Shown: one piece after another, positions 27,444 through 42,150 of the stretch | Numbering within the stretch: position 1 is the first letter of the stretch | How the letters are laid out: each line of letters opens with the position of its first letter | From: Jiangella muralis | Lineage (GTDB): Bacteria > Actinomycetota > Actinomycetes > Jiangellales > Jiangellaceae | Reading direction: 5' to 3' | DNA length: 64,000 nt | Assembly (NCBI RefSeq): GCF_001270745.1 | Contig: NZ_LFXL01000042.1 | Location: forward strand, 1-64,000 | Notes under the pieces: model-generated | What the model was told of the DNA's origin: nothing | Seen by the model: the letters and a program-made list of their open reading frames with translations, nothing else | Database searches by the model: none | Made by a program: the position numbers and the translations under genes

Positions 27444-28763
27444 GTGCGGGTCCCGGTCAGCGACGTGGGGCTCGGCGACCGCGCGGCCGACGTGCTGCGC
27501 GGCAACGACCTCGGCTCCATGACGGCGGCGGCGCCGCGGCTCTATCCGCACATGTGGAGCTGGGACTCCGGGCTGATCGCCGTCGGGCTGGCCCGGCTGT
27601 CGGTGCCGCGTGCCATCACCGAGCTGCGCACGCTGCTGCGCGCCCAGTGGGCGACCGGCATGATCCCGCACATCGTGTTCTCGGCGGGCGACGGCTACTT
27701 CCCCGGCCCGGAACGGTGGGGGACGGAGTCGGCGGCGGCCGCGCCCCGGGCCGTCCGCACGTCCGGCATCTGCCAGCCACCCGTGCACGCGCTCGCGGTG
27801 CGCCGCATCCTCGACGCCGGGCGGTCGGCCGGAGGCGAGGACCGCGCGGAGGCCGAGGCGTTCGTCCGCGACACCTTCGGCGCCTGGCTGGCCTGGCATC
27901 GCTGGCTGGCCACCGCGCGCGACCCGGACCGCCGCGGGCTGGTCGAGATCCACCACGGCTGGGAGAGCGGCATGGACAACTCGCCGCGCTGGGACCAGCC
28001 CTACGCCGCCGTCGTCCCCGGCGACGACCTGCCCGGGTTCGTCCGCACCGACGTCGACCACGTCGGCGACGTGCATGAACGCCCCACCGACGCCGAGTAC
28101 GGCCGGTACCTGTGGATCGTCGAGCAGCTGCGCCGGGTCCGCTACGACGACGCCGCCGCCCGCGAGGTCGTCGGGTTCCGGGTGGCCGACGTGTTCATGT
28201 CCGCCATCCTCGCCGTCGCCAGCGACGAGCTGGCCGGCCTCGGCGACGAGTTCGGCTTCGACGACGACGCGGCCGAGCTGCGCGAGCTGGCCGCCCGGTT
28301 CCGCGCCGGAGTCCGGTCGACAGTGTCGCCGTCGACGGGGCTGGCCCGCGACCTCGACCGCCGGTCCGGCCGCTGGATCGAGACGGAGACGGTCGCCGGC
28401 TTCGCGCCGCTGTTCTGCGGCGTCGACGACGGGTCGCAGCGGGCGCTGTTCTGGGGCGAGCGCTGGTGCGGCCACCCCGCGCTGGCGCACCCGCTGCCGC
28501 CGTCGGTCTCGCCGTCCGACCCCGGCCTGCGGCCGCGCACCTACTGGCGCGGCCCGGTCTGGCCGATCGTGTCGTGGCTGTTCAGCTGGGCCTTCGAGCG
28601 TCAGGGCGACGACGACGGCGCCCGGCGGCTGCGGGCGGCGTCGCTGCGGCAGCTGGCCGGCGGCGACTTCGGCGAGTATTACGAGCCGTTCACCGGCGAG
28701 CCGCTGGGCAGCCTGCACCAGTCCTGGACCGCCGCCGTGGCGCTCGACTGGCTGGCCCGCTGA
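27444..28763 (+). CDS. GH63-like (alpha/alpha)6-barrel glycoside hydrolase
   Basis: This 439-residue cytoplasmic hydrolase is like glucosylglycerate/mannosylglycerate hydrolases. Conserved segments are LYPHMWSWDSGLIAVG, EIHHGWESGMDNSPRWD (probable catalytic acid Asp), RTYWRGPVWPIVSW and GEYYEPFTGEPLGSLHQSWTAA (probable base Glu). Such enzymes free glucose or mannose from glycerate or related compatible solutes. Start GTG 27444 has GAAGGAGA upstream. The 23-residue longer form reaches into the regulator promoter. The exact substrate is not provable here. The divergent ROK regulator supports a sugar role. Confidence 0.82.
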   Translation: MRVPVSDVGLGDRAADVLRGNDLGSMTAAAPRLYPHMWSWDSGLIAVGLARLSVPRAITELRTLLRAQWATGMIPHIVFSAGDGYFPGPERWGTESAAAAPRAVRTSGICQPPVHALAVRRILDAGRSAGGEDRAEAEAFVRDTFGAWLAWHRWLATARDPDRRGLVEIHHGWESGMDNSPRWDQPYAAVVPGDDLPGFVRTDVDHVGDVHERPTDAEYGRYLWIVEQLRRVRYDDAAAREVVGFRVADVFMSAILAVASDELAGLGDEFGFDDDAAELRELAARFRAGVRSTVSPSTGLARDLDRRSGRWIETETVAGFAPLFCGVDDGSQRALFWGERWCGHPALAHPLPPSVSPSDPGLRPRTYWRGPVWPIVSWLFSWAFERQGDDDGARRLRAASLRQLAGGDFGEYYEPFTGEPLGSLHQSWTAAVALDWLAR

Positions 28764-28774
28764 GTCCGCCCGCG

Positions 28775-31700
28775 TCAGTCCGGCGGCAGCGCCGCCGCCC
28801 GGATGATCTCCTGGTCGATCCGGTTGCCGGCGGCGTCGGCGGCGCTGAAGCGCAGCGACAGGAATCCGGTGTGGCCGCGCGGCGGACGGTTCGGCAGGTG
28901 TGCCTTGAACGTGTCGCCGGAGCGGCGCACCCGCAGCGGCCGCCAGCTGGCGCCGTCGTCGTAGGAGGCCTCGACGGTGACTCCGGTGACCCGCGGGTCC
29001 GCACCGGCCAGGTGGCCGACCTCGACGGAGATCTCGTTCGGCCCGCGCCGGTCCCGCGGCGCGGGCAGCCGGTTGGTGAGGTCGGCGCCGAGGTCGTGGC
29101 CGAGGGTGAGCAGCGGCACCACGGCCGGCTCGTCTCCGGCCGGCGTCGTGTCGGAGACGAACGTCCAGGACGTGCGGGTGCGGGTCGAGAGCACCGCCCA
29201 CGGCGTCCGGTTCTCGAGTGAGTAGTCGATCCGGTACGTCTCCTCGCCGGGCGGCAACGCGATGGTGCCGGACGGCAGCAGGATGCCGCTCGCCTCGCCG
29301 AGCAGCTCGTCGCCGTGCCAGACCTGGAACAGCGAGCGGTAGCCGGCGCCGTCGTGGCCGCCCGCCCACGCCTCGCCGAAGTTGCCCGCGGCGTCGACGA
29401 AGCCGGCGGTGGGGATGATCAACTGGTCGCCGTGGCGGGTCATCGGCTGCTGGTCGTCGAAACCGGGGACGAGCGGCTGCCGCAGCCACGAGCGCTCACC
29501 GTCGGCCACGGGCTGGAGCGGGCCTAGAAGGGTGAGGTCGACGACGGTAGGGGCGGGCCAGTGCCCGCCGTACGGCACCGCCGGGGTCTGCACGGCGTGC
29601 TGCCAGAGCATGCCCGGGTCGTCGAGGTAGTAGTCGGTGCGGCTCACCGGCGCCTCCGGCACCGGCACCCAGACCGACGCGGAGAAGTCGTGCTCGGCGT
29701 CGAAGGGGTAGGCCACTTCCGTCAGCGACCCGCTCAGCTGGACGCCGTAGTCGTGCTGGACGGCGGTGAGGTCCGCGGCGCGGTCCACGTAGCTCAGCTC
29801 CGCCGGGATCCGGCCGCGTTCGAGGTGCACGAGGTCGTACACGTACGGGCTGGACGGGGTCCCGGTCGCGGTCGCGGTGACGGCGCCGTCGGCCAGCCGG
29901 TCCAGCAGCGCCTGGCCCTCCTCGTGCGACAGCCGCACGGTGGGCACCTCCAGCTGGGCGACCTCCGGGCCGACCTGGTCGTTCGACCCGGGCACGTCGT
30001 TGTAGACGGCGACCAGCGCGGCGCCGGCCGCGGCGGCCCGGTTCGCCTGCACGGCGACCGAGACCGCGTCGGAGCGGCGGATCAGCGCCAGCGCGCCGTC
30101 CAGGTCCGTGGCGGCGACGTCCGCGGCGGTGCCGTCACCGGCGTCGGCGACGGGCAGCGTCAGCTCGCCGTCGAGCATGGGGAACTGCGAGATCACGTCG
30201 CTGAGCCGGCTCGGCGGATAGTACGACGGCGCCAGTGCGACGCCATCGACGTCGAGCGTGATGTCCGGCGCGGTCAGGCGGAACCGGGACGAGGCGCTGA
30301 ACGAGCCGATGGTCACGTCCTCGGTGGGCTGCAGGAACGCCCGCTCCTCCAACTGTGCGCCGGGCGGACTCAGTAGGAAGTCGACGGTCGCCGGGCCGTC
30401 GGCCGGGGTCCGCGCCCAGCCGAATCCGACCGAGCCGCCGAGGTTCGCCCGCGTCTCGTGGTCCGGCGTCGCCACCTCGACCTCGACCGCCTCCCGCGCG
30501 TCCATGACCAGCGTGGTGTCGCCGGTGATCGTCACCTCCGGGTCGCCGACCAGCGCGGAGTACAGCGGTGTCGCCGTGTAGGGGTCGCCGTCGCTGTCGG
30601 CCCAGGCCGGCTTGGTCACGACCCACGTCATGACGGAGTAGGTTCCGGCCGGTACCCGCACGCACCAGGACAGCTCCGGCCCGTCCGAGCACGGCCCGTG
30701 CGGCGGCGCCTCGCCGGTCCGGACGTCGATGACAGGGTTGGCGTAGCCGGTGGTCAGGGCCAGCGCCGGCCGGCCGTCCGCGGCGATCGCCGTGACCATG
30801 ACCTCGAAGTGCTCCGCCTCGACGGTGTAGCCGAGCGGCAGCCGCAGCGGGTCCGGCTCGCCGGCAGGCGTCGCGAGCAGGTAGCCGGCGTAGTCGCCCG
30901 GCCGGCCGCCGGCGACGTCGAGCACCACCTCGGCGCTGCCTGCGGCGCCGGGCGCGAGCGTCAGCGTGGACGGCGTCACCGTCAGGTCGCCGGCGGCGGC
31001 GCCGGGCACGTCCGCGGCGAGGTCGACGGTGACCGGCGCGGTGGTCGTGTTGCGGTACTCGACGGTGCGCCGCAGCGGCGGCGCCGGTTCGTCGCCGGGG
31101 AACGGCACCAGGCCGAAGCTCAGGTCGCCGCCGGACGCCAGCACCGGGCTGGCCAGCACCCGGCCGACGTCGATCCGGCCACTGCCCTGCGCGGTGACGG
31201 CGACGCCGTCGGCGGGCACGGCGGTCGAGGTCAGCGCGGCCCGCAGCTCCGGCCCGGTGAGGTCCGGCCGGGCCTGGGCCAGCAGCGCGGCGGCGCCCGC
31301 GACGTGCGGCGCGGCCATGGACGTGCCGGAGTAGGCGACGTACGGGTCGCCGCCACCGGCCCGTGCGGCGGCGATCTCCACGCCCGGCGCGGTGACCTCG
31401 GGCTTGAGCCGGTGGCCGCCGTGCGTCGGGCCGCGGCTGGAGAAGTCGGCCAGCTGGTCGTCGCGGCCGACGGCGCCGACGGTGAGCGCCGACGGGGCGT
31501 CGCCCGGGCTGCCGATGCACGCGTCGCACCCGTCGTTGCCGGCGGCGATGACGAACAGCGTGCCGTGCTCGGCGGAGAGCCGTTCGACCGCGCCGGTCAG
31601 CAGTGGCGCGTCCAGGCTGCCCGGGCCGAGCGTCAGGCTCATGTTGACGATCCGCGCGCCCTCGGCGGCGGCCCACTCCATGCCGGCGATCGCCCAGGAG

Positions 31701-32632
31701 ACGAAGCCGCCGCCCCCGTAGTCCAGCACCTTGCCGCTGAGCAGCCGGGCGCCCGGCGCGACGCCGCGGCGGTCCCCGTCCGACGCCGCACCCGTCCCGG
31801 CGACGATCGAGGCGACGTGCGTGCCGTGCCCGGCGCCGTCGGTGGCGTCGGGGTCCTCGGTGAAGTTGACCGCGGCGTCGACCCGCCCGGCGAGGTCGGG
31901 GTGGGTGTCGTCGATGCCGGAGTCCAGCACGGCGACCGTGACGCCGTCGCCGTCGACGCCCGCGTCCCAGGCGGCCGGCGCGGAGATCTGGCCGGTGCTG
32001 CGGTCCAGCCGGGCCTCCGTGCGGGCGTCCAGCCAGACCTTCTCCACGGCGCCCAGCGGGTCGCCCCCGGCCAGCGGCCGTGCCCCGGCCAGGGCCAGCA
32101 CGGCCGCGCCGAACTCCGTCGGGTCTGCGTCGACCGCGACGGCGTTGACGCTGTTCAGCTGCAGGGTGGCGGTCGTACCGGGCACCGGCGTGGCGTCCAA
32201 GGGCCGCACGGCGTCGTCGGCGTAGTCGAGGATCAGCGGCAGCGTCGCGCCGGCATCCTGCGCGGCCAGCGCCGTCACGTCGAACAGCGCGGGGTCGAGG
32301 CGGTCCGGCACCAGCGCGGCGACGTCCGACGGCACCACCCGCGTGACGCCGTCGCGGGAACTGGCGTGGAACTGCGGGACGACGCCGCCGGGCCGCGGCG
32401 CGGGATCGACGGCGATGCCCTCGCGGCCGTCGGCGCCGCGCTGGACGTGCACGCGGTCGCCGGTGACGAGGGTGACGGTCGTGGTCTCCGGCTCCGCGCC
32501 GAACGCCGTCACCGCGTCACCCGTGCCGGCCGCCTCGCCGGCCTGCCCCGGCGCCGCGCCGAGGGTGGCGAGCAACGACCCGGCGACGAGAATCGCGAGG
32601 AGACGCCTGGATCTGTCCGACCGACCGCTCAT
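28775..32632 (-). CDS. Secreted subtilisin-like (S8) serine protease, multidomain
   Basis: This 1285-residue exported protease has a signal peptide at residues 1-31 (LLAILVAGSLLATLGAAPGQA) and a propeptide to about 205. The S8 domain has catalytic Asp at about 237 (VLDSGIDDTH), His at about 269 (GHGTHVA) and Ser at about 438 (GTSMAAPH). A beta-rich FN3-like region follows. A PA-like segment comes well after the catalytic domain (AVQANRAAAAGAALVAVYND), with more beta domains at the C-terminus. Start ATG 32632 has AAGGAG upstream. No sortase or membrane anchor is visible, so it is probably released and digests extracellular proteins. Confidence 0.93.
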   Translation of the reverse strand: MSGRSDRSRRLLAILVAGSLLATLGAAPGQAGEAAGTGDAVTAFGAEPETTTVTLVTGDRVHVQRGADGREGIAVDPAPRPGGVVPQFHASSRDGVTRVVPSDVAALVPDRLDPALFDVTALAAQDAGATLPLILDYADDAVRPLDATPVPGTTATLQLNSVNAVAVDADPTEFGAAVLALAGARPLAGGDPLGAVEKVWLDARTEARLDRSTGQISAPAAWDAGVDGDGVTVAVLDSGIDDTHPDLAGRVDAAVNFTEDPDATDGAGHGTHVASIVAGTGAASDGDRRGVAPGARLLSGKVLDYGGGGFVSWAIAGMEWAAAEGARIVNMSLTLGPGSLDAPLLTGAVERLSAEHGTLFVIAAGNDGCDACIGSPGDAPSALTVGAVGRDDQLADFSSRGPTHGGHRLKPEVTAPGVEIAAARAGGGDPYVAYSGTSMAAPHVAGAAALLAQARPDLTGPELRAALTSTAVPADGVAVTAQGSGRIDVGRVLASPVLASGGDLSFGLVPFPGDEPAPPLRRTVEYRNTTTAPVTVDLAADVPGAAAGDLTVTPSTLTLAPGAAGSAEVVLDVAGGRPGDYAGYLLATPAGEPDPLRLPLGYTVEAEHFEVMVTAIAADGRPALALTTGYANPVIDVRTGEAPPHGPCSDGPELSWCVRVPAGTYSVMTWVVTKPAWADSDGDPYTATPLYSALVGDPEVTITGDTTLVMDAREAVEVEVATPDHETRANLGGSVGFGWARTPADGPATVDFLLSPPGAQLEERAFLQPTEDVTIGSFSASSRFRLTAPDITLDVDGVALAPSYYPPSRLSDVISQFPMLDGELTLPVADAGDGTAADVAATDLDGALALIRRSDAVSVAVQANRAAAAGAALVAVYNDVPGSNDQVGPEVAQLEVPTVRLSHEEGQALLDRLADGAVTATATGTPSSPYVYDLVHLERGRIPAELSYVDRAADLTAVQHDYGVQLSGSLTEVAYPFDAEHDFSASVWVPVPEAPVSRTDYYLDDPGMLWQHAVQTPAVPYGGHWPAPTVVDLTLLGPLQPVADGERSWLRQPLVPGFDDQQPMTRHGDQLIIPTAGFVDAAGNFGEAWAGGHDGAGYRSLFQVWHGDELLGEASGILLPSGTIALPPGEETYRIDYSLENRTPWAVLSTRTRTSWTFVSDTTPAGDEPAVVPLLTLGHDLGADLTNRLPAPRDRRGPNEISVEVGHLAGADPRVTGVTVEASYDDGASWRPLRVRRSGDTFKAHLPNRPPRGHTGFLSLRFSAADAAGNRIDQEIIRAAALPPD

Positions 32633-32954
32633 CACCGCGGGCTCCTTCGCTGGGGTGCCCATCAGTGTTCGAGCCGGTGTGATGACGGCGCCAGGGCCCG
32701 GCGCTGGCGAATGCCCGCCATGGCGCCATCTCGCCAACGCGGAGAAACGCGGAATTCCCATGATCGAATGAGTGCGCCGGCTTATACGTGATTGTTTTCT
32801 AGATCACCACGATCCTCTCGTCCGAGTACTCCATCGGGTGTTCGGACCATATTGCTCCAAGATCCGACATACGTCGCGATGCGTACCTAGTCTGCGAGGG
32901 AACCGCAGGTGAACGGGGTGTTCACCGGTGGCAGGCCACACGCGAGGGAGCCTG
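32633..32954. promoter_or_regulatory. Divergent intergenic region (322 bp)
   Basis: The region separates the S8 protease and caspase-helicase genes. It has an AT-rich island at about 32775-32830 (GTGATTGTTTTCTAGATCA), unusual here and a likely promoter area. No hairpin or operator stands out, and no gene is seen. GAGGGAG at 32944-32950 is the ribosome-binding site of the rightward gene. Confidence 0.45.
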
Positions 32955-35900
32955 ATGAACGAGCCGTCGATGCATGTGCGGACCGAACCTGTCCGGGATC
33001 GGTTCGTGGCCGTCCGTCCGGCCACGGTCACGCTTCCGGCGCCGCCACGACGTACGCCCGAGGCGTCGCTGCGATTCCCGTCCGCCGTGGAGTCCACCGC
33101 CGCTCCGGCCGTCCCGGGCGCCCGCCGGCTGCCCGCCGGCGACCGCGCCGCGCTGCTCGTCGGCACGGCCGTCCACGACCACACCGGCTACCCGCTGCTG
33201 CCCGCCGCGGCGGCCGGGCTGCGCCAGTTGCGGCAGGTCCTGGAGCGCGCCGACGTCGGCATGGTCGACACCTGCCAGGTGGTCGCCGACGGCAGCCGCG
33301 GCGAGATCATGCGGGCGGTCGAGACGTTCCTCGACGATCGGGCGCTGGCCGACACCGTGCTGGTGTACCTCACCGGCTACGCGCAGGTGTCCGGCGCCGA
33401 CGGACGGCTCTACCTCGCCGCCGCCGACACCGACCCCGCCGACCTCGAGCGCACCGCCGTCCCGGCCGACTTCCTCCGCGACCAGCTGCAGGAGTGCCGG
33501 GCGGCCAGCAAGGTCGTGCTGCTCGACGCCTGCCTGCCCGGCCCGGAGACCGACCGGTTCGCCGTCCAGCGCCGCCAGGTCATGCTCGAGCCGGCCGGCG
33601 TCTACGTCATCTCGGCGTCGCCGGCCCCGCTGCCCGCGTCCGTCATGGCCGAGCCGGTGCCGCAACTGGGCACGTCGCGGTTCACCGGCGAGATCGTCGA
33701 AGGGCTGCGCACCGGCCGGGTCAAGGACGGCCTGGGCCCGTGGGTCACCGCCGAGGACCTCGCCCGCTACCTCACCACCAAGCTCGCCGCGCAGGGCGTG
33801 CCGGCCGAGCAGTTGCCGGCCACGTCCACGCTCGCCGTCACCGGCAACCACGTCATCGCTCGGTCGGCGGTGCGGGCGCTCAGCCTGCTCGACGGCAACG
33901 GCGGGCGCGACGTCCGCGGCACGTCCACCGGCGCCGGCGGCACCGTCGCCGTCCCGCCTGCCGGGACGGACGGCGCGGCAGGCGGCGCGGGGGCGGCCGG
34001 CGGCGACCACGGCGACCAGGTCGCCGACCCGGGCTGGCGCGAGGTCATCGACTACTACCGGTCCTGCCTGGCCGAGGCGCCGTCGCCCGCGGCGCTGCCG
34101 GTGCGCGGCGCCGAGTCCGCCGACTGGTTCCCGATGACCGACGGCGCCGAGGCCCTGCTCAGCGGCACCGAGCCGACGACGCTCGCCCCGGCCGGCGTCG
34201 ACACGTTCGACTGGAAGGAACGCGACGTCTGGTACGGGTACCCGCTGGTCACGCTGGCCGGCGCCGGCCGCCGGAACTCGGGCGACCCGCTCGCGCCGTC
34301 CACCGTCGCACCGCTGCTGGTCCGCCGCGCCGAGGTCACCGTCGACGCCCGCGGCGCCGCCGCACTGCGCCCCGTCGGACCGGTGCTGCCGCACGCCGGC
34401 ATCCTGCAGGCGTGCTTGGACGACCAGGAGGCGGCCAGCGTGCTGGCGGCCTGGCGGCAGAGCTGGAAGCCGGGCGACCGCGACCAGCTGCTGGTGGCGA
34501 TCCGGCAGCTGCTGAAGCGGCTGGACCTGGACGAGCTGAGCCGGCTCGACCCCGCCGCGCTGGACGCCGTCGACCAGAAGTCCGCCAACCGCACCGGCGT
34601 GCACAACACCGCCTGCGTGCTGTACGTCGAGTCCGAGCGGGCCGCCCAGCAGGCCGTCGCCGCCGAGCTGGCCGAGCTGGGGGAGCGGCTGGCCGACGTG
34701 CCCGGCACCGCGCTGGAGTTCCTGGGCAAGCCGGTCGGGCTGCGCACCACCACCCGCGCCGTCGTCGCGCCGGTGCTGCCGGCCGAGCTGAACGAGAGCC
34801 AGCAGGCGGTGCTGACGGCGGCCATGTCGCGGCCGCTCACCGTCGTCGCCGCGCCGCCCGGCACCGGCAAGGACGAGCTCATCGTCGACGTCGTCGCCAC
34901 GGCGGTCGCCGCGGGGCAGAAGGTGCTGGTCGCCTCCGCCGACGACGCCGCGCTGCAGCGGCTGGCCGACCGGTGCGGCACGCTCGTCACCGGCCTGCTG
35001 ATCAAGACCGGCGACGCACAGGGCCGGGCCGAGGAGAAGCAGGTCGTCCGCGAGCTGCTGCGCTCCACCAAGGACGCGTCGCGCAGCCGCAGCCGCGGTT
35101 CCGTCGCCGCCGAGCTGGCCGCCGCCCAGGTGCAGGTCAAGGCCTGGCGCGACCGCCTGGCCGAGCGGAACGACCTCGAGGCGCTGCTGCGTAAGACCAC
35201 CGCCGCCCGGTCCGCCGCGGCCGAGCGGCTGGGCGTGCCGTCCGACCTGCTGGCCGCCGCGTGGCGCGGCGACGACGCCGGGCTGGCCGACTGGGTCGAC
35301 CGCGCGCGCACGCTCACCGAGACGCACCTCATGGGCGGACTGCGCCGCCGCAACCTGGTGCTCGCGTTCGTCCGCGCCATCGCCGACGCCGGTGCCGACT
35401 CCGGCGCCGTGCGCGAGCTGCTGCTGGACCCCGCCGCGTTCGACGCGCTGCTGCTGTTCGCGCGGGCCGAGGACCGGCTGCGCGAGGACCGGCGCGAGGC
35501 GCTCGCCGTCAGCGACGACGCGCTCGACCTCGAGGGCCGCGAGCTGTCCGCGCGGGTCGCCGAGCTCTCCGCGGAGCTGCTCACCGTCGTCGTCGCGGAG
35601 CAGGCCGGCACCGCCCGGGAGCGGCTGGAGGCGCGCCGCATCGCGCTGGAGCCGGGCGGCCGGAACCGCCGGACCAGCCACCGCGAGCTGCTCAGTCACC
35701 TCGGCGGCTGGGCGGTCACGCCGCGCGACGCCGGGCAGCTGGCGCTGGAGCCGGGCATGTTCGACCTGGTCGTCATCGACGACGCGCACCACTGCCCGGT
35801 GTCCGCCGCACTGCCGCTGCTGTTCCGCGCCCGCCGCGCCCTCGTCGTCGGCGACCCGCGGCAGCGGCTGCGCGCGCCCGGCCTCAGCGACCACCGGCTG

Positions 35901-36959
35901 CGCCGCGCCCGCCGCGCCGCCGGCCTGAGCGCCGGTTTCCTGGCCGAGCGGCGGCTGTCCTTCCGCGGCGACTCCGTCTACGACGCCGCGCTGCCCAACG
36001 TCGAGGAGCCGATGCTGCTCGACGAGCACGACGGCGCCCACCCGGGCATCGCCCGCATCGTCGACGAGCACTTCTACGGGGGCCGGCTGACCGTCGTCAC
36101 CGATGTCGGCGCGCTGCCCAGGGCACACGACGCCGAGACCGGCGACGCGACGCTGCTGCTCTGGGAGGACGTCACCGGCACGCCCGAACGCGGCGCCAAC
36201 GGCGGCTCCTGGCGCAACCAGGCCGAGATCGACCGCGTCGTGTGGGCGGTCAAGGAACTGCGCGAGCAGCTGCCCGCCGACGCCACGATCGCCGTCGCCA
36301 CCCCGTTCCGGGCCCAGGCCGAGGAGCTGCGGTCGCTGTTCCGGTTCGAGCCGGTGCCGGTGGCCTGCGTGGCCGACGGCGACGCCGTCGACTGCGACGC
36401 GGTCGTGCTGTCGCTGGTCGCCGGCGACGGGATGCCGGAGCAGACGCTGCGTTGGGCGCAGGGGCAGACGGCGCTGTGGAGCGGCTCGCTGGCCCGGGCG
36501 CGGGCGCACGTCGTCACCGTCGGGCAGCACGGGTTCTGGTCGCGGCAGGCCGGGCTGCCGGCGCTGCTGGCCCGGATGTCGTCCGTCCGGTCCTTCCACG
36601 TCCGGCCCAACCCGCCGGCGCCACTGGAGTCGGCCGTCTTCACCGACCCGCTGGTCGAGGCGCTGTGCGCGCGGCTCGAGGCGGCCGGCGCCGGGGTCGG
36701 CGCGGTCGAGCCGAACGCCGTCGTCGACGGCTACCGCGTCGACGTGCTGGTGCGCACGCCGTCCGGCAGCACCGCCGTCCTGCTGGACCGCGGCTGGCCG
36801 GGCGAGGACGCCGCCCGCCACCTGCGGCTGCTGCTGCGCCGGCGCCGGCTGCTGACCGGGCTGGTGCCGGACTCGGGGCTGCCGCCGGTGACGCGGGTCC
36901 TGCGGGTGGCGACGTGGCAGGTGCGCGCCGGAGAGCCGATCGACGGACTTCTCGACTGA
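32955..36959 (+). CDS. Caspase-like / SF1 helicase / possible nuclease-fold fusion protein
   Basis: This 1334-residue protein has an N-terminal caspase-fold segment at about 65-300: strands AALLVGTAVHD and DTVLVYLTG, and the Cys motif LLDACLPG with Cys193. The catalytic His of SGHG is replaced by Tyr142 (LTGYAQ). A Gly-rich linker follows (about 320-355). A UPF1-like superfamily 1 helicase spans about 610-1200: motif I APPGTGKDE, motif II VVIDDAHH, motif III VVGDPRQ, TPFRAQ and LARARAHVVTVG, with a coiled-coil insert between I and II. The end (about 1230-1300, VDGYRVDVLV, AVLLDRGW) may be a degenerate PD-(D/E)XK fold. No partner gene is evident. A conflict or stress role is plausible. Confidence 0.85.
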   Translation: MNEPSMHVRTEPVRDRFVAVRPATVTLPAPPRRTPEASLRFPSAVESTAAPAVPGARRLPAGDRAALLVGTAVHDHTGYPLLPAAAAGLRQLRQVLERADVGMVDTCQVVADGSRGEIMRAVETFLDDRALADTVLVYLTGYAQVSGADGRLYLAAADTDPADLERTAVPADFLRDQLQECRAASKVVLLDACLPGPETDRFAVQRRQVMLEPAGVYVISASPAPLPASVMAEPVPQLGTSRFTGEIVEGLRTGRVKDGLGPWVTAEDLARYLTTKLAAQGVPAEQLPATSTLAVTGNHVIARSAVRALSLLDGNGGRDVRGTSTGAGGTVAVPPAGTDGAAGGAGAAGGDHGDQVADPGWREVIDYYRSCLAEAPSPAALPVRGAESADWFPMTDGAEALLSGTEPTTLAPAGVDTFDWKERDVWYGYPLVTLAGAGRRNSGDPLAPSTVAPLLVRRAEVTVDARGAAALRPVGPVLPHAGILQACLDDQEAASVLAAWRQSWKPGDRDQLLVAIRQLLKRLDLDELSRLDPAALDAVDQKSANRTGVHNTACVLYVESERAAQQAVAAELAELGERLADVPGTALEFLGKPVGLRTTTRAVVAPVLPAELNESQQAVLTAAMSRPLTVVAAPPGTGKDELIVDVVATAVAAGQKVLVASADDAALQRLADRCGTLVTGLLIKTGDAQGRAEEKQVVRELLRSTKDASRSRSRGSVAAELAAAQVQVKAWRDRLAERNDLEALLRKTTAARSAAAERLGVPSDLLAAAWRGDDAGLADWVDRARTLTETHLMGGLRRRNLVLAFVRAIADAGADSGAVRELLLDPAAFDALLLFARAEDRLREDRREALAVSDDALDLEGRELSARVAELSAELLTVVVAEQAGTARERLEARRIALEPGGRNRRTSHRELLSHLGGWAVTPRDAGQLALEPGMFDLVVIDDAHHCPVSAALPLLFRARRALVVGDPRQRLRAPGLSDHRLRRARRAAGLSAGFLAERRLSFRGDSVYDAALPNVEEPMLLDEHDGAHPGIARIVDEHFYGGRLTVVTDVGALPRAHDAETGDATLLLWEDVTGTPERGANGGSWRNQAEIDRVVWAVKELREQLPADATIAVATPFRAQAEELRSLFRFEPVPVACVADGDAVDCDAVVLSLVAGDGMPEQTLRWAQGQTALWSGSLARARAHVVTVGQHGFWSRQAGLPALLARMSSVRSFHVRPNPPAPLESAVFTDPLVEALCARLEAAGAGVGAVEPNAVVDGYRVDVLVRTPSGSTAVLLDRGWPGEDAARHLRLLLRRRRLLTGLVPDSGLPPVTRVLRVATWQVRAGEPIDGLLD

Positions 36960-37043
36960 CCGTTTGCGGGAGGTTTGTCTACAAGTCATCCGGAGTGGGA
37001 AGGCTCGACGGCACGTGCGCCGTGACGTCGAAAGGACCCCACC

Positions 37044-37895
37044 ATGCGCCTGCTCCGCACCGCCGCCCCCGCGGTTCTGGCAGTCTTGGGACTGATGGCC
37101 GGGACCACTCAGCCCGCTTTGTCGGCCGATCCGTCGCCCCGCGACCGGCCGCTCACCGTCATGAGCTTCAACATCCACCACGGCGTCGGCGTCGACGGCC
37201 TGCTGAACCTGCAGCGGGCCGCCGACGTCATCAAGACCGAAGGCGTCGACGTCGTCGGCCTGCAGGAGGTCGACCGGCACTGGGGCGAGCGCAGCGACTT
37301 CGCCGACCAGGCCGCCTGGCTCGCCGATGAGCTGGACATGCACGTCGTCTACGGCGCCAACCTCGATCTCGACCCGGCGCAGCCGGGGGAGCCGCGGCGG
37401 CAGTACGGCACCGCGATCCTGAGCGAGCGGCCGATCCGCGCATGGGACAACACCTTTCTGCCCAAGTACGAGGGGCACGAGCAGCGCGGCCTGCTGCGCG
37501 CCCGCATCAACGTGCGCGGCGTCTGGGTGAGCGTCTACAACACCCACCTGCAGCACAACGACGCCAACGAGCGGCTCGAACAGGTCGCGGCGATCGAGGC
37601 GCTGATGGGGCAGCCGGACGAGTCGGTGGTCCTGCTCGGCGACCTCAACGCCGTCCCGTCGTCGCCGGAGATCCGCGAACTCGTCGACGACCTCGTCGAC
37701 ACCTGGGAGGCCGCCGGAGTCGGCGACGGCAACACCTACCCGGCCGAGGACCCGAACGCCCGCATCGACTACGTCCTCACGTCCGGCGACGTCATCGTCC
37801 GCACCGCTGCCGTCGTCTCCACCGACGCGTCGGACCACCTGCCGGCCAAGGCGGAGGTCCTGCTGCCCGGTTCCCGTGTTGGCCTGGGGAATTGA
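37044..37895 (+). CDS. Secreted endonuclease/exonuclease/phosphatase family protein
   Basis: This 283-residue exported EEP-fold hydrolase has a signal peptide at 1-28 (AVLGLMAGTTQPALSA). Catalytic motifs are MSFNIHHG, LQEVD with metal-binding Glu75, YNTHLQH, GDLNAVPSSPE with Asp200 and Asn202, and SDHLP near the end. Family members cut DNA or RNA, phosphoinositides or other phosphodiesters. Export and lack of extra domains leave the substrate open. GAAAGGA precedes the ATG. It follows the caspase-helicase gene by 84 bp but has its own signal for translation. Confidence 0.92.
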   Translation: MRLLRTAAPAVLAVLGLMAGTTQPALSADPSPRDRPLTVMSFNIHHGVGVDGLLNLQRAADVIKTEGVDVVGLQEVDRHWGERSDFADQAAWLADELDMHVVYGANLDLDPAQPGEPRRQYGTAILSERPIRAWDNTFLPKYEGHEQRGLLRARINVRGVWVSVYNTHLQHNDANERLEQVAAIEALMGQPDESVVLLGDLNAVPSSPEIRELVDDLVDTWEAAGVGDGNTYPAEDPNARIDYVLTSGDVIVRTAAVVSTDASDHLPAKAEVLLPGSRVGLGN

Positions 37896-38007
37896 TGAGT
37901 AGGGCAAGTTTCTGAGACGGATTCGGGCAAACGCGTGAGGGTGCGGAACTGCGTATCGTGACGGTATGACTCGAAGGTCAGAACATGATCGAGCGAAGGA
38001 GGTCCCG

Positions 38008-38580
38008 ATGATGACGGTCACGGTGCCCAACGAGCTCCTGACCATCGAGGACTGGGATGCACTCGAGGAGACCGACGCCAACCGGTACTGGGAGCTCGTC
38101 GACGGAACGATCGTCATGAACTCGTTCCCGTCGGGCGGACATCAGCTGGTTGCGCAGGAACTGGTCACCCAGTTGGGTGCGCAGCTACCCGACGGCCTGG
38201 TCGCGCTTCAGCACATGGGCGTGATCATCGAGGCGCAGTTCCCGCCGACGGAGCGTGGCCCGGACATCGTCGTGTTCCCGCGGGCGCAGGCGCGACTGAG
38301 CGTGTCGCGGCTCGACCCGGCCGACGTGCGGCTGGTCGTCGAGATCGTCTCGCCCGGATCGCGGCGCACCGACCGCATCGCGAAGGTCGCCGACTATCAG
38401 TACGCCGGCATTCCGGCGTACTGGATCATCGACCCGGCGGCCGACGACGAAGCCAGGTTCGTGGCGTACGAGCTGGTCGGCGGCGCGTACAAGGAGGTCG
38501 CCGGTGGTTCCGGGGTGATCTCGCTCGAGCGGCCGTTCCCGGTGTCCATCGACGTCGACGAGCTGCTGACGTTCGACTGA
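38008..38580 (+). CDS. Uma2-family (DUF820) nuclease-fold protein
   Basis: This 190-residue PD-(D/E)XK-superfamily protein has features ANRYWELVDGTIVMN, GPDIVVF, LVVEIVSPGSRRTDRIAKVADYQYAGIPAYWIIDP, giving the Asp, Glu and Lys expected for the fold. Uma2 proteins are abundant in actinobacteria and cyanobacteria; some may be parts of mobile or toxin-like units. AAGGAGG lies at 37996-38002, and ATG 38008 or ATG 38011 are both possible. It is 3 nt before the alcohol dehydrogenase gene, so the two are co-transcribed. Confidence 0.87.
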   Translation: MMTVTVPNELLTIEDWDALEETDANRYWELVDGTIVMNSFPSGGHQLVAQELVTQLGAQLPDGLVALQHMGVIIEAQFPPTERGPDIVVFPRAQARLSVSRLDPADVRLVVEIVSPGSRRTDRIAKVADYQYAGIPAYWIIDPAADDEARFVAYELVGGAYKEVAGGSGVISLERPFPVSIDVDELLTFD

Positions 38581-38583
38581 GGC

Positions 38584-39588
38584 ATGCGCGCCTGGCGAGT
38601 CACCACGCCCGGCCCGATGGCGAGCCGGCCGCTGACGCGCGTCGATGAGCCGGTGCCCGAGCCCGGCCCCGGCGAGCTGCTGGTCCGGGTGCTGGCCTGC
38701 GGCGTCTGCCGCACCGACCTGCACGTCGCCGAGGGCGACCTGCCGGTGCACCGCCCGCGGGTCGTGCCCGGCCACGAGGTGGTCGGCGAAGTGGAGAGCG
38801 ACGGCGGCGCCGGAGGTTTCGCCGTCGGCGACCGCGTCGGCATCGCCTGGCTGCGCGGCACCGATGGGACCTGCGCGTACTGTCGTCGCGGCGCCGAGAA
38901 CCTGTGCCCGGCCTCGGTCTACACCGGCTGGGACGCCGACGGCGGATACGCCGAGTACGCGACCGTCCCGGCCGCCTACGCGCTGGCGCTGCCGTCCGGT
39001 TACGACGACATCGAGCTGGCGCCGCTGCTGTGCGCCGGCATCATCGGCTACCGCGCGCTGCTCCGCGCCGAGCTGCCACCCGGCGGCCGGCTGGGGATCT
39101 ACGGATTCGGCGCCAGCGCCCACCTCGCGGCCCAGGTCGCGCTGGCCCAGGGGGCCACCGTCCACGTCCTGACCCGCAGCCCGGCGGCGCAACGGCTGGC
39201 GCTCCAGCTGGGCGCGGCCTCGGCCGGCGGCGCTGCCGACCCGCCGCCGGAGCCGCTCGACGCCGCGATCCTGTTCGCGCCGGTCGGCGACCTCGTCCCG
39301 CCGGCGCTGGCCGCGCTGGACCGTGGCGGCACGCTCGCCGTCGCCGGTATCCATCTCACCGACGTGCCGCCGCTGAACTATCAGCGGCACCTGTTCCAGG
39401 AACGGCAACTGCGCAGCGTCACCGCCAACACCCGCGACGACGCCCGGGCGTTCCTCCGTTTCGCCGGGGAGCACCGGCTGCTCGTCACCACGACGCCGTA
39501 TCCGCTCGGCCGCGCCGATGCCGCGCTGAGCGACCTCGCCGCCGACGCCGTCAGCGGCGCCGCAGTACTCGTCCCCGCCCTCGGTTGA
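38584..39588 (+). CDS. Zinc-dependent alcohol dehydrogenase
   Basis: This 334-residue medium-chain dehydrogenase has catalytic zinc ligands in [10 protein letters not shown] and PGHEVVGEV. The structural-zinc lobe has only three cysteines ([13 protein letters not shown]): the first of the usual four is replaced by Asp-Gly, so this site may be weakened or lost. The NAD(P) fold ([15 protein letters not shown]) carries GFGASA. It resembles the AdhA/YahK-like group active on aldehydes. The 3' end overlaps the antiporter gene on the other strand by 38 bp. Confidence 0.9.
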
Positions 39589-40753
39589 GCACCCGCCGCC
39601 GCACCACGTCACGGAACCAGGGCAGGTCCGGCAGCCGCGCCAGCAGCGGCCCGAGCACCACCGTCAGCAGCACGTACGTCGTCACCAGCGGCGCCAGCGT
39701 CGGCTCGATGCCGGCGCCGACCGCCAGCCCGGCGATCACGACGGAGAACTCGCCCCGCGGCACCAGCGCCAACCCAGCCCGCCACCGTCCCGGCTCGGCG
39801 ATGCCGGCGCGCCGGGCCGCCAGCCAGCCGGTGAGCACCTTCGTCGCGGTCGTGACGACGGTCAGCGCCAGCGCCGGCAGCAGTACCGGCCCGATGTCGG
39901 CGGGGTCGGTGGTCAGCCCGAAGAAGATGAAGAACACCGCCGCGAACACGTCCCGCAACGGTGTCAGCAGCTCCGACGCGTGCTCGGCGACCGGGCCGGA
40001 GATCGCGATGCCGACTAGGAACGCCCCGACGGCGGCCGACACGTTCACCTGCTCCGCGACACCCGCCACCACCATCGTCAGCCCGAGCACGCCCAGCAGC
40101 AGCGCCTCCCGCTGCCGCGGCGAGAACAGCGTCGAGATCGCGTTGCCGTGCCGCAGGGCCAGGTAGAGGATCACCACGGCCGCGGTGACGGCGATCGCCA
40201 GCGTCCGCGCGCCCTCGGCCAGCCCGGCGCCGACCACCAGCGTCGACAGCACCGGCAGGTAGAACGCCATCGCGAGGTCCTCGATGACCAGGACCGACAG
40301 CACCACCGGGGTCTCGCGGTTGTTCAGCCGGCCGAGGTCGCGCAGCACTTTCGCGATGACACCCGACGACGACACCCAGGTCACCCCGGCCAGCGCGACG
40401 GCGGCGACCGGGCCCCAGCCCATCAGCAGCGCGAACGCCGCACCCGGCAGCGCGTTGAGCAGCGCGTCGTACAGTCCGGACAGCGCCGAGCGGCGGATGC
40501 TCGCGACCAGCTCGCCGGCCGAGTACTCCAGCCCCAGCATGAGCAGCAGCAGGATGACGCCGACCTCGGAGCCGACCTCGAAGAACTCCTCGCTGGCCGA
40601 CAGCGGCAGCAGCCCGCCCTGCCCGAACGCCAGCCCGGCCAGCAGGTAGAACGGGATCGGCGACACCCCGGCGCGGCCGGCCAGCCGGCCCAGCAGCCCC
40701 ATCCCCAGCAGGAGCGCACCGATCTCGATCAGGAGGGTGGTGGTCTCCGGCAT
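39551..40753 (-). CDS. khtU: CPA2-family cation:proton antiporter (KhtU-like)
   Basis: This 400-residue integral membrane antiporter has about 12 hydrophobic segments. The transmembrane motif LIEDLA-like ([17 protein letters not shown]) contains the essential acidic residue, and [12 protein letters not shown] and [11 protein letters not shown] are conserved in Na+/H+ and K+/H+ antiporters. It is encoded directly after a TrkA-C regulatory subunit, the gene order of KhtTU potassium efflux systems that respond to high pH or methylglyoxal. Its 3' end overlaps the alcohol dehydrogenase gene. Confidence 0.92.
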
Positions 40754-40765
40754 CGGGGCAGCGGA

Positions 40766-41260
40766 TCAGTTCGCGCCGTCGGCGATGAGCCGGGTCAGCG
40801 CGTCGAGGCCCTCGCGGGTGCCGACCGCGACCAGGAGGTCGCCGGCCCGCAGCGGCGCTTCCGGCCCCGGCGACGGCTGCACGGCGCCGTCGCGGAGCAG
40901 CGCGACGATGGACGCGCCGGTGCGGGTGCGCGCCCGGGTGTCGCCGAGCGCGCGGCCCGCGAACGGCGACCCGGCGGTGACGGCGATCTGCTCGGTGTAC
41001 AGCCCGGCGGCGTGGTCGCGCAGCGCGGCCAGCTGGCCGAGCACGACGGACGCGCCGAGCAGCCCGGCCAGCGTCTCGGCTTCGTCGTCGGTGAGCGTGA
41101 TGGGGTCGCGGCAGGAGTCGGGGTCGTCGATGTCGAAGACGGCCAGCGTGCGCTCGCCGGAACGTTGCGCCAGGACGCTGACCCGTCGGCCGGACTGCGT
41201 CAACACGTCGTGTCGCACTCCGATGCCCGGCAGGTCGACCTGTTCGATGCGCACCGCCAC
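40766..41260 (-). CDS. khtT: Antiporter regulatory subunit (KhtT-like, RCK_C/TrkA-C)
   Basis: This 164-residue soluble regulator has an N-terminal KhtT-type domain (MAVRIEQVDLPGIGVRHDVLTQSGRRVSVL-like) and a C-terminal TrkA-C domain (LYTEQIAVTAGSPFAGRALGDT ... LRAGDLLVAVGTREGLDAL) that binds nucleotide ligands to gate the antiporter. The start is GTG. It lies 12 bp before the transporter gene, so the subunits are co-expressed. Together they should expel K+ under alkaline or electrophile stress. Confidence 0.92.
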   Translation of the reverse strand: MAVRIEQVDLPGIGVRHDVLTQSGRRVSVLAQRSGERTLAVFDIDDPDSCRDPITLTDDEAETLAGLLGASVVLGQLAALRDHAAGLYTEQIAVTAGSPFAGRALGDTRARTRTGASIVALLRDGAVQPSPGPEAPLRAGDLLVAVGTREGLDALTRLIADGAN

Positions 41261-41292
41261 GCCTCGACACTACCTCCGGGCGCGCCGGCGGC

Positions 41293-41670
41293 TCAGCGGG
41301 CGTCCAGCGCCTTGAGCATGCGCTGCAGCGCGACCTGCCGGTACGAGCCGTCCAGCAGCTCGCCGACCTCCGTCCAGTCGACGTCGGCGGCGGTGAAGTC
41401 GAGAGCCAGCCAGCCGCTGGGGCCGAAGTAGGGGGGCACGTAGACGCGCGGGTCCTGCAGCAGCGCCGGCCGGTCGGCCGGGTCGGGCTTGAAGGTCACC
41501 GCGAACGGGTGGTCGTCGCTGCCCGTGAAGACGGCGAAGATCTTCTTCGCCGCGCGGAAGGTCGGCCGGCCCCACGCCTCGACCTCGACCGCCTCGGGGA
41601 AGCGGAGGCAGGCGGCGCGCAACTCGGCGAGGTATGGCTCGTCGTCGGTGTACATCCGCGGGTGCGCCAC
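41293..41670 (-). CDS. MmcQ/YjbR-family DNA-binding-like protein
   Basis: This 125-residue protein of the MmcQ/YjbR fold has CLRFPEAVEVEAWGRPTFRAAKKIFAVF, VYVPPYFGPSGWLALDF and a final helix (ELLDGSYRQVALQRMLKALD). The fold resembles a type of double-wing DNA-binding domain but a role is not established. A second, divergent member lies at 59894. The start is GTG. It is upstream of and on the same strand as khtT, 32 bp away. Confidence 0.85.
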   Translation of the reverse strand: MAHPRMYTDDEPYLAELRAACLRFPEAVEVEAWGRPTFRAAKKIFAVFTGSDDHPFAVTFKPDPADRPALLQDPRVYVPPYFGPSGWLALDFTAADVDWTEVGELLDGSYRQVALQRMLKALDAR

Positions 41671-41736
41671 CCGGTCAGCGTACGGCGTCCGATTCCTTCA
41701 AGACGCCCTCGCGAGCCGGGCCGTAGCGTCGTCGGC

Positions 41737-42150
41737 ATGACACAGCCACGTTTCAACGCCATCGGCTTCGCGGTCGCCGACATGGCCCGCTCGCTGGAGT
41801 TCTACCGGGCGCTCGGCCTCGACGTCCCCGACGGCGCGGAAGTCGCGCCGCACGCCGAGATCCCGCTCGCGCCGGGCGTGAAGCTGCTGCTCGATACGCA
41901 CGCGTCGATCGCCGGGTTCGATCCCGGCTTCACCCCGGAGACCGGCGGCCACGCCAGCCTCGCCTTCGACTGCGGCGACCCGGCCGGCGTCGACGCGGCG
42001 TACGAGCGGATGATCGCCGCCGGCGCCGCGAGCCACCTCGCGCCGTGGGACGCGTTCTGGGGTCAGCGCTACGCCGTGGTGCAGGACCCGGATGGCAACG
42101 GCGTCGACTTCTATGCCGCGCTGCCGGGCGCTACGCCACCAGGGTCGTGA
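41737..42150 (+). CDS. VOC-superfamily protein
   Basis: This 137-residue protein has NAIGFAVADMARSLEFYRALGLDVP at the start and VVQDPDGNGVDFYAALPG at the end, the paired-module VOC layout. The first metal His is missing at the usual spot, so it may be a binding protein rather than an enzyme; bleomycin-resistance-like proteins are similar. Start ATG 41737 is chosen because the N-terminal motif begins there. The 3' end overlaps the convergent AraC gene by 20 bp. Confidence 0.83.
   Translation: MTQPRFNAIGFAVADMARSLEFYRALGLDVPDGAEVAPHAEIPLAPGVKLLLDTHASIAGFDPGFTPETGGHASLAFDCGDPAGVDAAYERMIAAGAASHLAPWDAFWGQRYAVVQDPDGNGVDFYAALPGATPPGS

Follow-up and report, generated by a model that had tools for sequence, protein, structure and literature searches.

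A conserved caspase-helicase fusion protein of Jiangella with degenerate catalytic motifs, probably derived from an EACC1-type conflict system

In a 64,000-nucleotide stretch of the Jiangella muralis genome (contig NZ_LFXL01000042.1, positions 1 to 64,000; referred to here as the window), a gene on the forward strand (32955..36959, +) encodes a protein of 1334 residues that joins a caspase fold to a UPF1-like superfamily 1 (SF1) helicase fold, with catalytic motifs altered in both. We consider it probable that this is a domesticated, catalytically dead pseudocaspase-pseudohelicase, which was recruited from an EACC1-type conflict system and now acts as a non-enzymatic scaffold or regulator. The open reading frame (ORF) and the fusion of the two domains in one protein had both been proposed in an earlier note made from the sequence alone, and both were borne out: the GC contents of the three codon positions are of the coding type (0.80/0.53/0.97, measured from a GTG at 32928), no internal stop was present in any orthologue row compared, and profile matches as well as predicted folds were obtained for either domain. 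Orthologues were found in 14/22 genomes of the Jiangellaceae, namely in 12/12 of the same genus, in 2/2 of a second genus (g2, including Haloactinopolyspora alba), and in none of the 8 others, two of which are <90% complete.

The caspase domain (residues 62 to 305; 33138..33869, +) was matched by the NCBIfam profile NF047832 (caspase_w_EACC1), which covers residues 65 to 279 with an E value of 2.2e-40 and a score of 138.4 bits, just under the cut-off of 140; in a genome-wide search, the same protein scored 143.2 bits and was the only NF047832 copy in the 7.27-Mb genome, while the orthologues L022 and L023 reached 131.1 and 124.8 bits, respectively. The caspase fold, which the earlier note had put up for disproof by a structure search, held. 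In an AlphaFold2 model of residues 58 to 612 (best of five; mean predicted local distance difference test [pLDDT], 73.5; predicted template-modeling score [pTM], 0.47), the best match was the MALT1 paracaspase (Foldseek E value, 1.5e-9; Z score, 23.3 over 200 residues, with a root mean square deviation [rmsd] of 2.2). The catalytic His, however, has been replaced by Tyr142 (33378..33380, +): the sequence reads GYA in 13/13 full-length orthologues versus GHG in 3/3 relatives with intact motifs (see below). The position of the catalytic Cys is occupied by Cys193 (33531..33533, +) and carries a Cys in 12/13 orthologues and a Gly in L023. Hence, the caspase built around Cys193 that was originally suggested does possess that residue but not a working center, since the partner His is a Tyr in all 13 orthologues and the Cys itself has been lost in one. 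Without a His-Cys dyad in any of them, the domain combines a p20-type caspase fold with a substituted dyad, which is the definition of a pseudo-orthocaspase.

A similar picture was obtained for the helicase part (residues 605 to 1225; 34767..36629, +), which matched Pfam models AAA_11 and AAA_12, both above their cut-offs, and for which the model of residues 598 to 1334 (pLDDT, 87.1; pTM, 0.86) resembled IGHMBP2, UPF1, Senataxin, and Aquarius. The predicted structure contains a tandem RecA-like fold of the UPF1 type (Z score, 20.3 to 4b3g over 390 residues; rmsd, 3.6). Helicase core and caspase domain were the main parts covered by the structure comparisons. Individual motifs of such helicases serve in the binding of ATP or of nucleic acid, and their state was tabulated for the 13 full-length orthologues, the 3 intact relatives, and 4 other degenerate relatives. 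None of SF1 motifs I, II, YRxHP, and V is conserved. In the degenerate Walker A motif (APPGTGKDEL; 34851..34880, +), the Ser/Thr has become Asp, Glu, Gly, or Gln in 13/13 orthologues, two of which (L017 and L018) have lost the Lys as well, and in the altered Walker B motif (VVIDDAHH; 35769..35792, +), the Glu has been retained in 1/13. Where the intact relatives have EHYRCHP or EHFRCHP, our protein reads EHDGAHP (36024..36044, +), and the arginine of this YRxHP motif is missing from all 13 orthologues. Equally uniform (13/13) are the alteration of the TNN of motif Ia and the loss of the FQGGE of motif V, which reads VACVADGDAVDCD here (36360..36398, +) versus VGTVHTFQGGERD in intact relative L038. 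In genome G013, where the gene is split across two contigs, the motif state agrees in both halves. What had been described as a nearly complete helicase core is, in short, a helicase fold with degenerate ATP and nucleic-acid motifs.

Near the N terminus, a tail motif, RFVAVRP (residues 16 to 22; 33000..33020, +), emerged from the alignment of the 13 orthologues, with R16, F17, V18, A19, V20, and P22 invariant and R21 nearly so; no counterpart was seen in the alignment of the three intact relatives. A middle domain (residues 355 to 604; 34017..34766, +), which belongs to no known family and gave only chance-level Pfam matches, carries the most conserved stretch of all, APxGVDTFDWKERxxWYGYP (residues 411 to 430). 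The C-terminal domain of 109 residues (1226 to 1334; 36630..36956, +) is present in the intact relatives too. Its Pfam matches were likewise at chance level (SURF1, with an E value of 0.13), no nuclease family appeared up to an E value of 10, and an (E/D)xK motif is absent both here and from 3/3 intact relatives; judged by its sequence, the domain thus offers no support for the PD-(D/E)XK nuclease once suspected there.

Of the 281 columns that are invariant in the three intact relatives, our protein keeps 34/63 inside the motifs and 144/218 elsewhere (Fisher p value, 0.10), and the motifs are therefore no better preserved than the rest of the protein, while an active enzyme would be expected to preserve nearly all motif columns. 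The gene as a whole is nevertheless under purifying selection, which disfavors its reading as a pseudogene. The ratio of nonsynonymous to synonymous substitution rates (dN/dS), as determined by the Nei-Gojobori method for 8 pairs, with codon bias uncorrected, was 0.19 to 0.32 over the whole gene and stayed below 0.6 in each domain of each pair. In addition, 528/1334 positions are invariant among the 13 orthologues, the densest invariant stretches being residues 411 to 430 of the middle domain and residues 1084 to 1103 of the second helicase lobe.

Conservation extends into the DNA upstream of the gene, where a stretch from approximately -150 to -50 (32805..32905, +), which is probably regulatory, aligned with L022 and L023, the two most distant orthologues, at 74 to 84% identity. 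In the same pairs, identity was 51 to 53% at fourfold sites of the gene, i.e., below that of the upstream stretch, and dropped to 32 to 36% farther upstream than about -150. By scanning the loci, we found that this stretch contains an invariant 18-base element, CATCGGGTGTTCGGNCCA (one free position; 32832..32849, +), which occurs once each in 26/88 loci, several of which repeat one gene, and covers all 14 gene-bearing genomes. The element matched no regulator site that we recognized, and a looser form of it was not overrepresented in the window. A possible promoter, CCGACA-18-TAGTCT (32864..32893, +), was picked out by eye from the sequence and the alignment; a consensus scan returned no sigma-70-type site, and Rfam gave 0 matches in 28000 to 42000.

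The origin of the protein is best approached through its relatives. The same domain order, which the earlier note had recommended looking for in other actinomycetes, was indeed encountered in intact form in three other families, with full-length proteins at 30 to 35% identity (L026/L038 in genome G058, L027/L039 in G122, and L028/L040 in G057). These proteins carry SGHG and D[CS]C in the caspase domain and GPPGTGKS or GAPGTGKS, DEASQ, GDxxQL, EHYRCHP or EHFRCHP, FQGGE, and TRARS in the helicase, and they score 144 to 157 bits against NF047832. In family f18, which we take to be Frankia-like, the intact form is patchy, with 2/35 genomes containing it, one of them in an apparently frameshifted copy. 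That second copy (L051/L052; G139:C241:8165-11814) has a two-base step between query residues 457 and 459, which suggests either a frameshift or an error of the draft assembly.

Just upstream of each of the three intact relatives lies a small ORF that we read as EACC1-like, on the basis of its position, its length, a hydrophobic stretch, and a profile match. For the latter, an alignment of the three upstream proteins was compared with that of three other small proteins, encoded in front of caspase genes on two Streptomyces plasmids and at another site in G122, and the two matched (hhalign probability, 96.3; E value, 1.5e-9); one member of the second set has a subthreshold match to Pfam EACC1 (E value, 0.0075). 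No such partner was found for the Jiangella gene: by eye, none of the 14 loci contained an EACC1-like ORF (at least 60 residues, ending between -320 and +40 of the start; the starts in L007 and L009 are approximate) in a scan that found the partner in 3/4 controls, and PF19953 had no match in any of the 14 gene-bearing genomes, this being a model that did ring in G058 but misses divergent members. The two-gene arrangement of EACC1 systems, in which the caspase gene is preceded by that for EACC1, is consequently not seen here. At another locus (L045:8035-12736, +), an EACC1-like gene precedes a caspase gene with fused ATPase domains of the FtsK/SpoIIIE and NACHT/AAA types, which is one more variable architecture.

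A second degenerate lineage was found in family f17, presumably Nocardiopsis/Thermobifida-like. Three of its genes, L041:8530-11505 (-), L042:7360-10491 (+), and L044:7979-11116 (+), encode proteins of 991, 1043, and 1045 residues, respectively, that start at the middle domain, the caspase being gone; a fourth, L043:3866-6754 (+; 962 residues), has a caspase remnant (54.5 bits against NF047832) in which the alignment shows neither the His nor the Cys. The degenerate f17 proteins have lost the Walker A Lys and the acidic pair of Walker B. In L041, L042, and L044, the gene immediately upstream is the same regulator-like one, which in L043 occupies the second position upstream. In the tree, one branch (support, 98/99) groups the Jiangella clade with intact L026 and L027, versus the degenerate f17 clade with intact L028. 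Forcing the three intact rows together, and thereby creating one degenerate group, cost 16.8 log units (p-AU, 0.019), although these groups were named after the tree had been seen and the tool warned of meeting long branches. The f17 proteins thus probably lost their motifs separately from the Jiangella clade, and the two lineages differ in outcome: catalytic centers have been erased in both, but one keeps the shape of the caspase, whereas in the other the caspase is reduced to a remnant or gone.

The surroundings of the gene are mostly metabolic and cell-wall related, as judged from Pfam scans of ten neighboring genes. Its constant downstream neighbor, on the same strand in 14/14 genomes, encodes an endonuclease/exonuclease/phosphatase (EEP)-family protein (37044..37895, +; PF03372), at a distance, counting the stop codon, of 85 to 92 bases in 13 genomes and of 40 in the other, and the two genes are possibly cotranscribed. 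As a direct partner, the EEP protein is unlikely, since its signal peptide-like N terminus argues for export. Its orthologue in genus g5 of the same family sits elsewhere (4 loci), making synteny uninformative as to gain or loss. Upstream, a peptidase M23 gene was present in all eight compared loci reaching that far, while glycoside hydrolase, ROK, and S8 genes are variably present. The S8 gene in the window (28775-32761, -) encodes a divergent subtilase of 1328 residues with a PA domain and matches the PADLOC models for a subtilase (E value, 2.1e-36) and IetS (1e-13). We rejected it as a partner: some Jiangella species have an orthologue of it (64 to 87% identity) next to the gene and others lack one, the subtilase gene adjoining it in 4/12 loci (L002, L008, L047, and L049) and being absent from 7/12 (L003, L004, L006, L007, L009, L010, and L048), with L005 not judgeable. 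Two genes downstream, a Uma2-family gene (37966-38580, +) matches the candidate defense model PDC-S03 (E value, 3.5e-30); it is only 53 to 63% identical in several Jiangella species whose neighboring genes reach 84 to 98%, and 87 to 88% identical in L004 and L049. As regards linkage to defense, then, the downstream neighbor is constant and the neighbors are mostly metabolic or cell-wall related, yet the subtilase and Uma2 genes, among four window genes scanned with PADLOC, match candidate defense models, so that a linkage to defense genes may exist. Plasmids and phages yielded no match spanning 80% of the query, and carriage by viruses was dismissed, with one viral-contig helicase matching residues 604 to 1194 only, at 29% identity.

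What is computed here comprises predicted folds, motif loss, orthology, neighbor conservation, purifying selection, and conserved upstream DNA. The intact relatives keep their motifs and each has an EACC1-like upstream gene, which makes an EACC1-type caspase-helicase system the probable ancestor; it would have consisted of two genes, one for a small EACC1-like protein and the other for a protein composed of caspase, middle domain, and UPF1-like helicase, in this order. The link to conflict systems drawn in the earlier note is accordingly borne out by these relatives of the same architecture, but the present copy, with its degenerate motifs and no partner found, hardly resembles a functional caspase-helicase machine. 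In the common ancestor of Jiangella and Haloactinopolyspora, the general base of the caspase would have been lost through the His-to-Tyr replacement, as would the ATP- and nucleic-acid-binding motifs of the helicase, and the EACC1-like partner gene may have been lost or left behind. The shape would have been retained, i.e., the caspase fold, the middle domain, the helicase fold, and the C-terminal domain, together with a new N-terminal tail and the conserved upstream region. The His and the residues for nucleotide and nucleic-acid binding have gone, whereas folds, surfaces, and upstream DNA have stayed, and this is most economically explained by a non-enzymatic role: we would expect no activity in vitro and consider it likely that the protein serves, by binding, as a scaffold or regulator that offers conserved surfaces to other proteins, candidates being APxGVDTFDWKERxxWYGYP, GSWRxQAExDRVVWAVxELR, TSTLxVxGNHVIARSxVR, and RFVAVRP. 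More tentatively, and with somewhat less than even confidence, we propose that, on at least two occasions, actinomycetes have converted a caspase-helicase immune machine into a conserved core protein, the catalytic centers being erased and the folds preserved. Selection would then act on the helicase-shaped body rather than on the protease, and this body would be a non-enzymatic hub under the control of a conserved upstream region of its own.

Several observations weigh against this interpretation. The scaffold role is arrived at by exclusion. The caspase and middle-domain model is of moderate quality, the other four models having a mean pLDDT of only 60 to 62. As for ancestry, long branches meet in the tree, 118 genomes of the class yielded no more than three intact full-length relatives (plus the one apparently frameshifted copy), the Pfam EACC1 model does not recognize their three upstream proteins, and the hhalign match compares two sets of three sequences with no control. 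Finally, some thiol function could remain with the persistent Cys193, some nucleotide function could remain with the Walker A Lys of 11/13 orthologues, and His76, which is invariant in the 13 orthologues and is not matched by a His in the intact relatives, could replace the lost His. These same residues, together with the equally invariant Asp75, are what would favor unconventional catalysis, in which active-site residues have migrated (His76 serving Cys193, for instance, or Lys639 binding nucleotide without hydrolysis) and a new activity has arisen. We regard this as improbable, considering that the Cys is lost in L023 and the Walker A Lys in L017 and L018.

The reading suggested by the architecture itself, that of an active defense protein whose helicase senses nucleic acid and triggers the caspase so that the infected cell is killed or arrested, appears very unlikely. 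It has in its favor the architecture shared with the intact-motif relatives, the presence of both folds, the Cys kept in 12/13, and the nearby subtilase and Uma2 genes with their matches to candidate defense models. On the motif table, however, with the His, the Walker A Ser/Thr, the YRxHP arginine, and motif V each lost in 13/13, an active enzyme was rejected; moreover, no partner gene was found, and the gene occurs in 14/14 genomes of its genera instead of patchily, as the intact form does in f18. A slowly decaying, functionless remnant of a lost conflict system would account for eroded motifs and a missing partner, and the f17 relatives, of whose caspase little or nothing is left, went further down that road. 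We nonetheless hold it to be the least probable of the alternatives in view of the stop-free orthologue rows, the low dN/dS, the 528 invariant positions, and upstream DNA that is better conserved than silent sites. Less easily dismissed, if still unlikely, is a decoy or dominant-negative regulator, a dead protein that binds and blocks resident or incoming EACC1-type components. The retained caspase fold fits such a role, and for inactive caspase domains in related vWA-linked systems, a function as dominant-negative regulators or in peptide binding has been suggested (PMC7159879). The genome of the window, though, holds one NF047832 domain, the protein's own, and no PF19953 match, leaving no known resident target in a search limited to these two families, for the second of which the model misses divergent members.

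If a non-enzymatic scaffold or regulator is indeed what these genera maintain, a dead copy of an immune-type enzyme has been kept under selection across approximately 40% protein divergence, implying that proteins of this kind can serve a purpose even when they catalyze nothing. Intact relatives coexist with two dead lineages, one that has the caspase and one that does not, and comparing them makes it possible to test what caspase, middle domain, and helicase each contribute to EACC1-type systems. For Jiangella, an annotation of "caspase plus helicase" should not be taken to indicate a function in cell death or defense.

Inactive caspases as such are already known from bacteria (Klemencic et al. 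2019, PMC6426788), and related conflict systems often contain inactive caspase domains (Kaur et al. 2020, PMC7159879). In a partial library of the literature, whose supplements and source data were unreadable, we found no description of this protein, nor of a double loss in a caspase-UPF1-like fusion that is genus-wide and paralleled in another family. With the EACC1-type systems (NF047832; PMC7159879), the protein shares the caspase subfamily (with scores of 138 to 143 bits, on either side of the 140-bit cut-off), the N-terminal position of the caspase, and a large, variable C-terminal part; unlike them, it has no 5' partner that we could find, has lost the His clade-wide, and is present in each genome of its genera. 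In the available text of that paper, section 33 names no helicase among the fused domains, an SF1 helicase module appears elsewhere as an effector of related systems, usually with a PIN domain, and ~70% of the effector-position caspase domains in vWA-linked systems are called inactive. The pseudo-orthocaspases of PMC6426788 resemble our domain in the His-to-Tyr replacement, which is part of the commonest substitution reported there, but their Cys is usually replaced too, by Ser, whereas it is kept here in 12/13; in the portion of the paper at hand, they are mostly from Alphaproteobacteria and Cyanobacteria (with 3/636 actinobacterial sequences among them), and a helicase is not mentioned. In the f17 lineage, helicase and C-terminal domain are arranged in the same way, and the middle domain is present in L041, L042, and L044; the lineage differs in having the caspase deleted (the same three) or reduced to a remnant (L043), on the opposite side of the main branch of the tree. 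Mokosh proteins work with other partners. The present protein matches the PADLOC model of Mokosh MkoA with an E value of 8.6e-26, and its intact relatives match MkoA/MkoC down to 4e-62; what sets it apart from Mokosh, UPF1, IGHMBP2, and Senataxin alike is that its ATP and nucleic-acid motifs have been lost and that its helicase is fused to a caspase fold.

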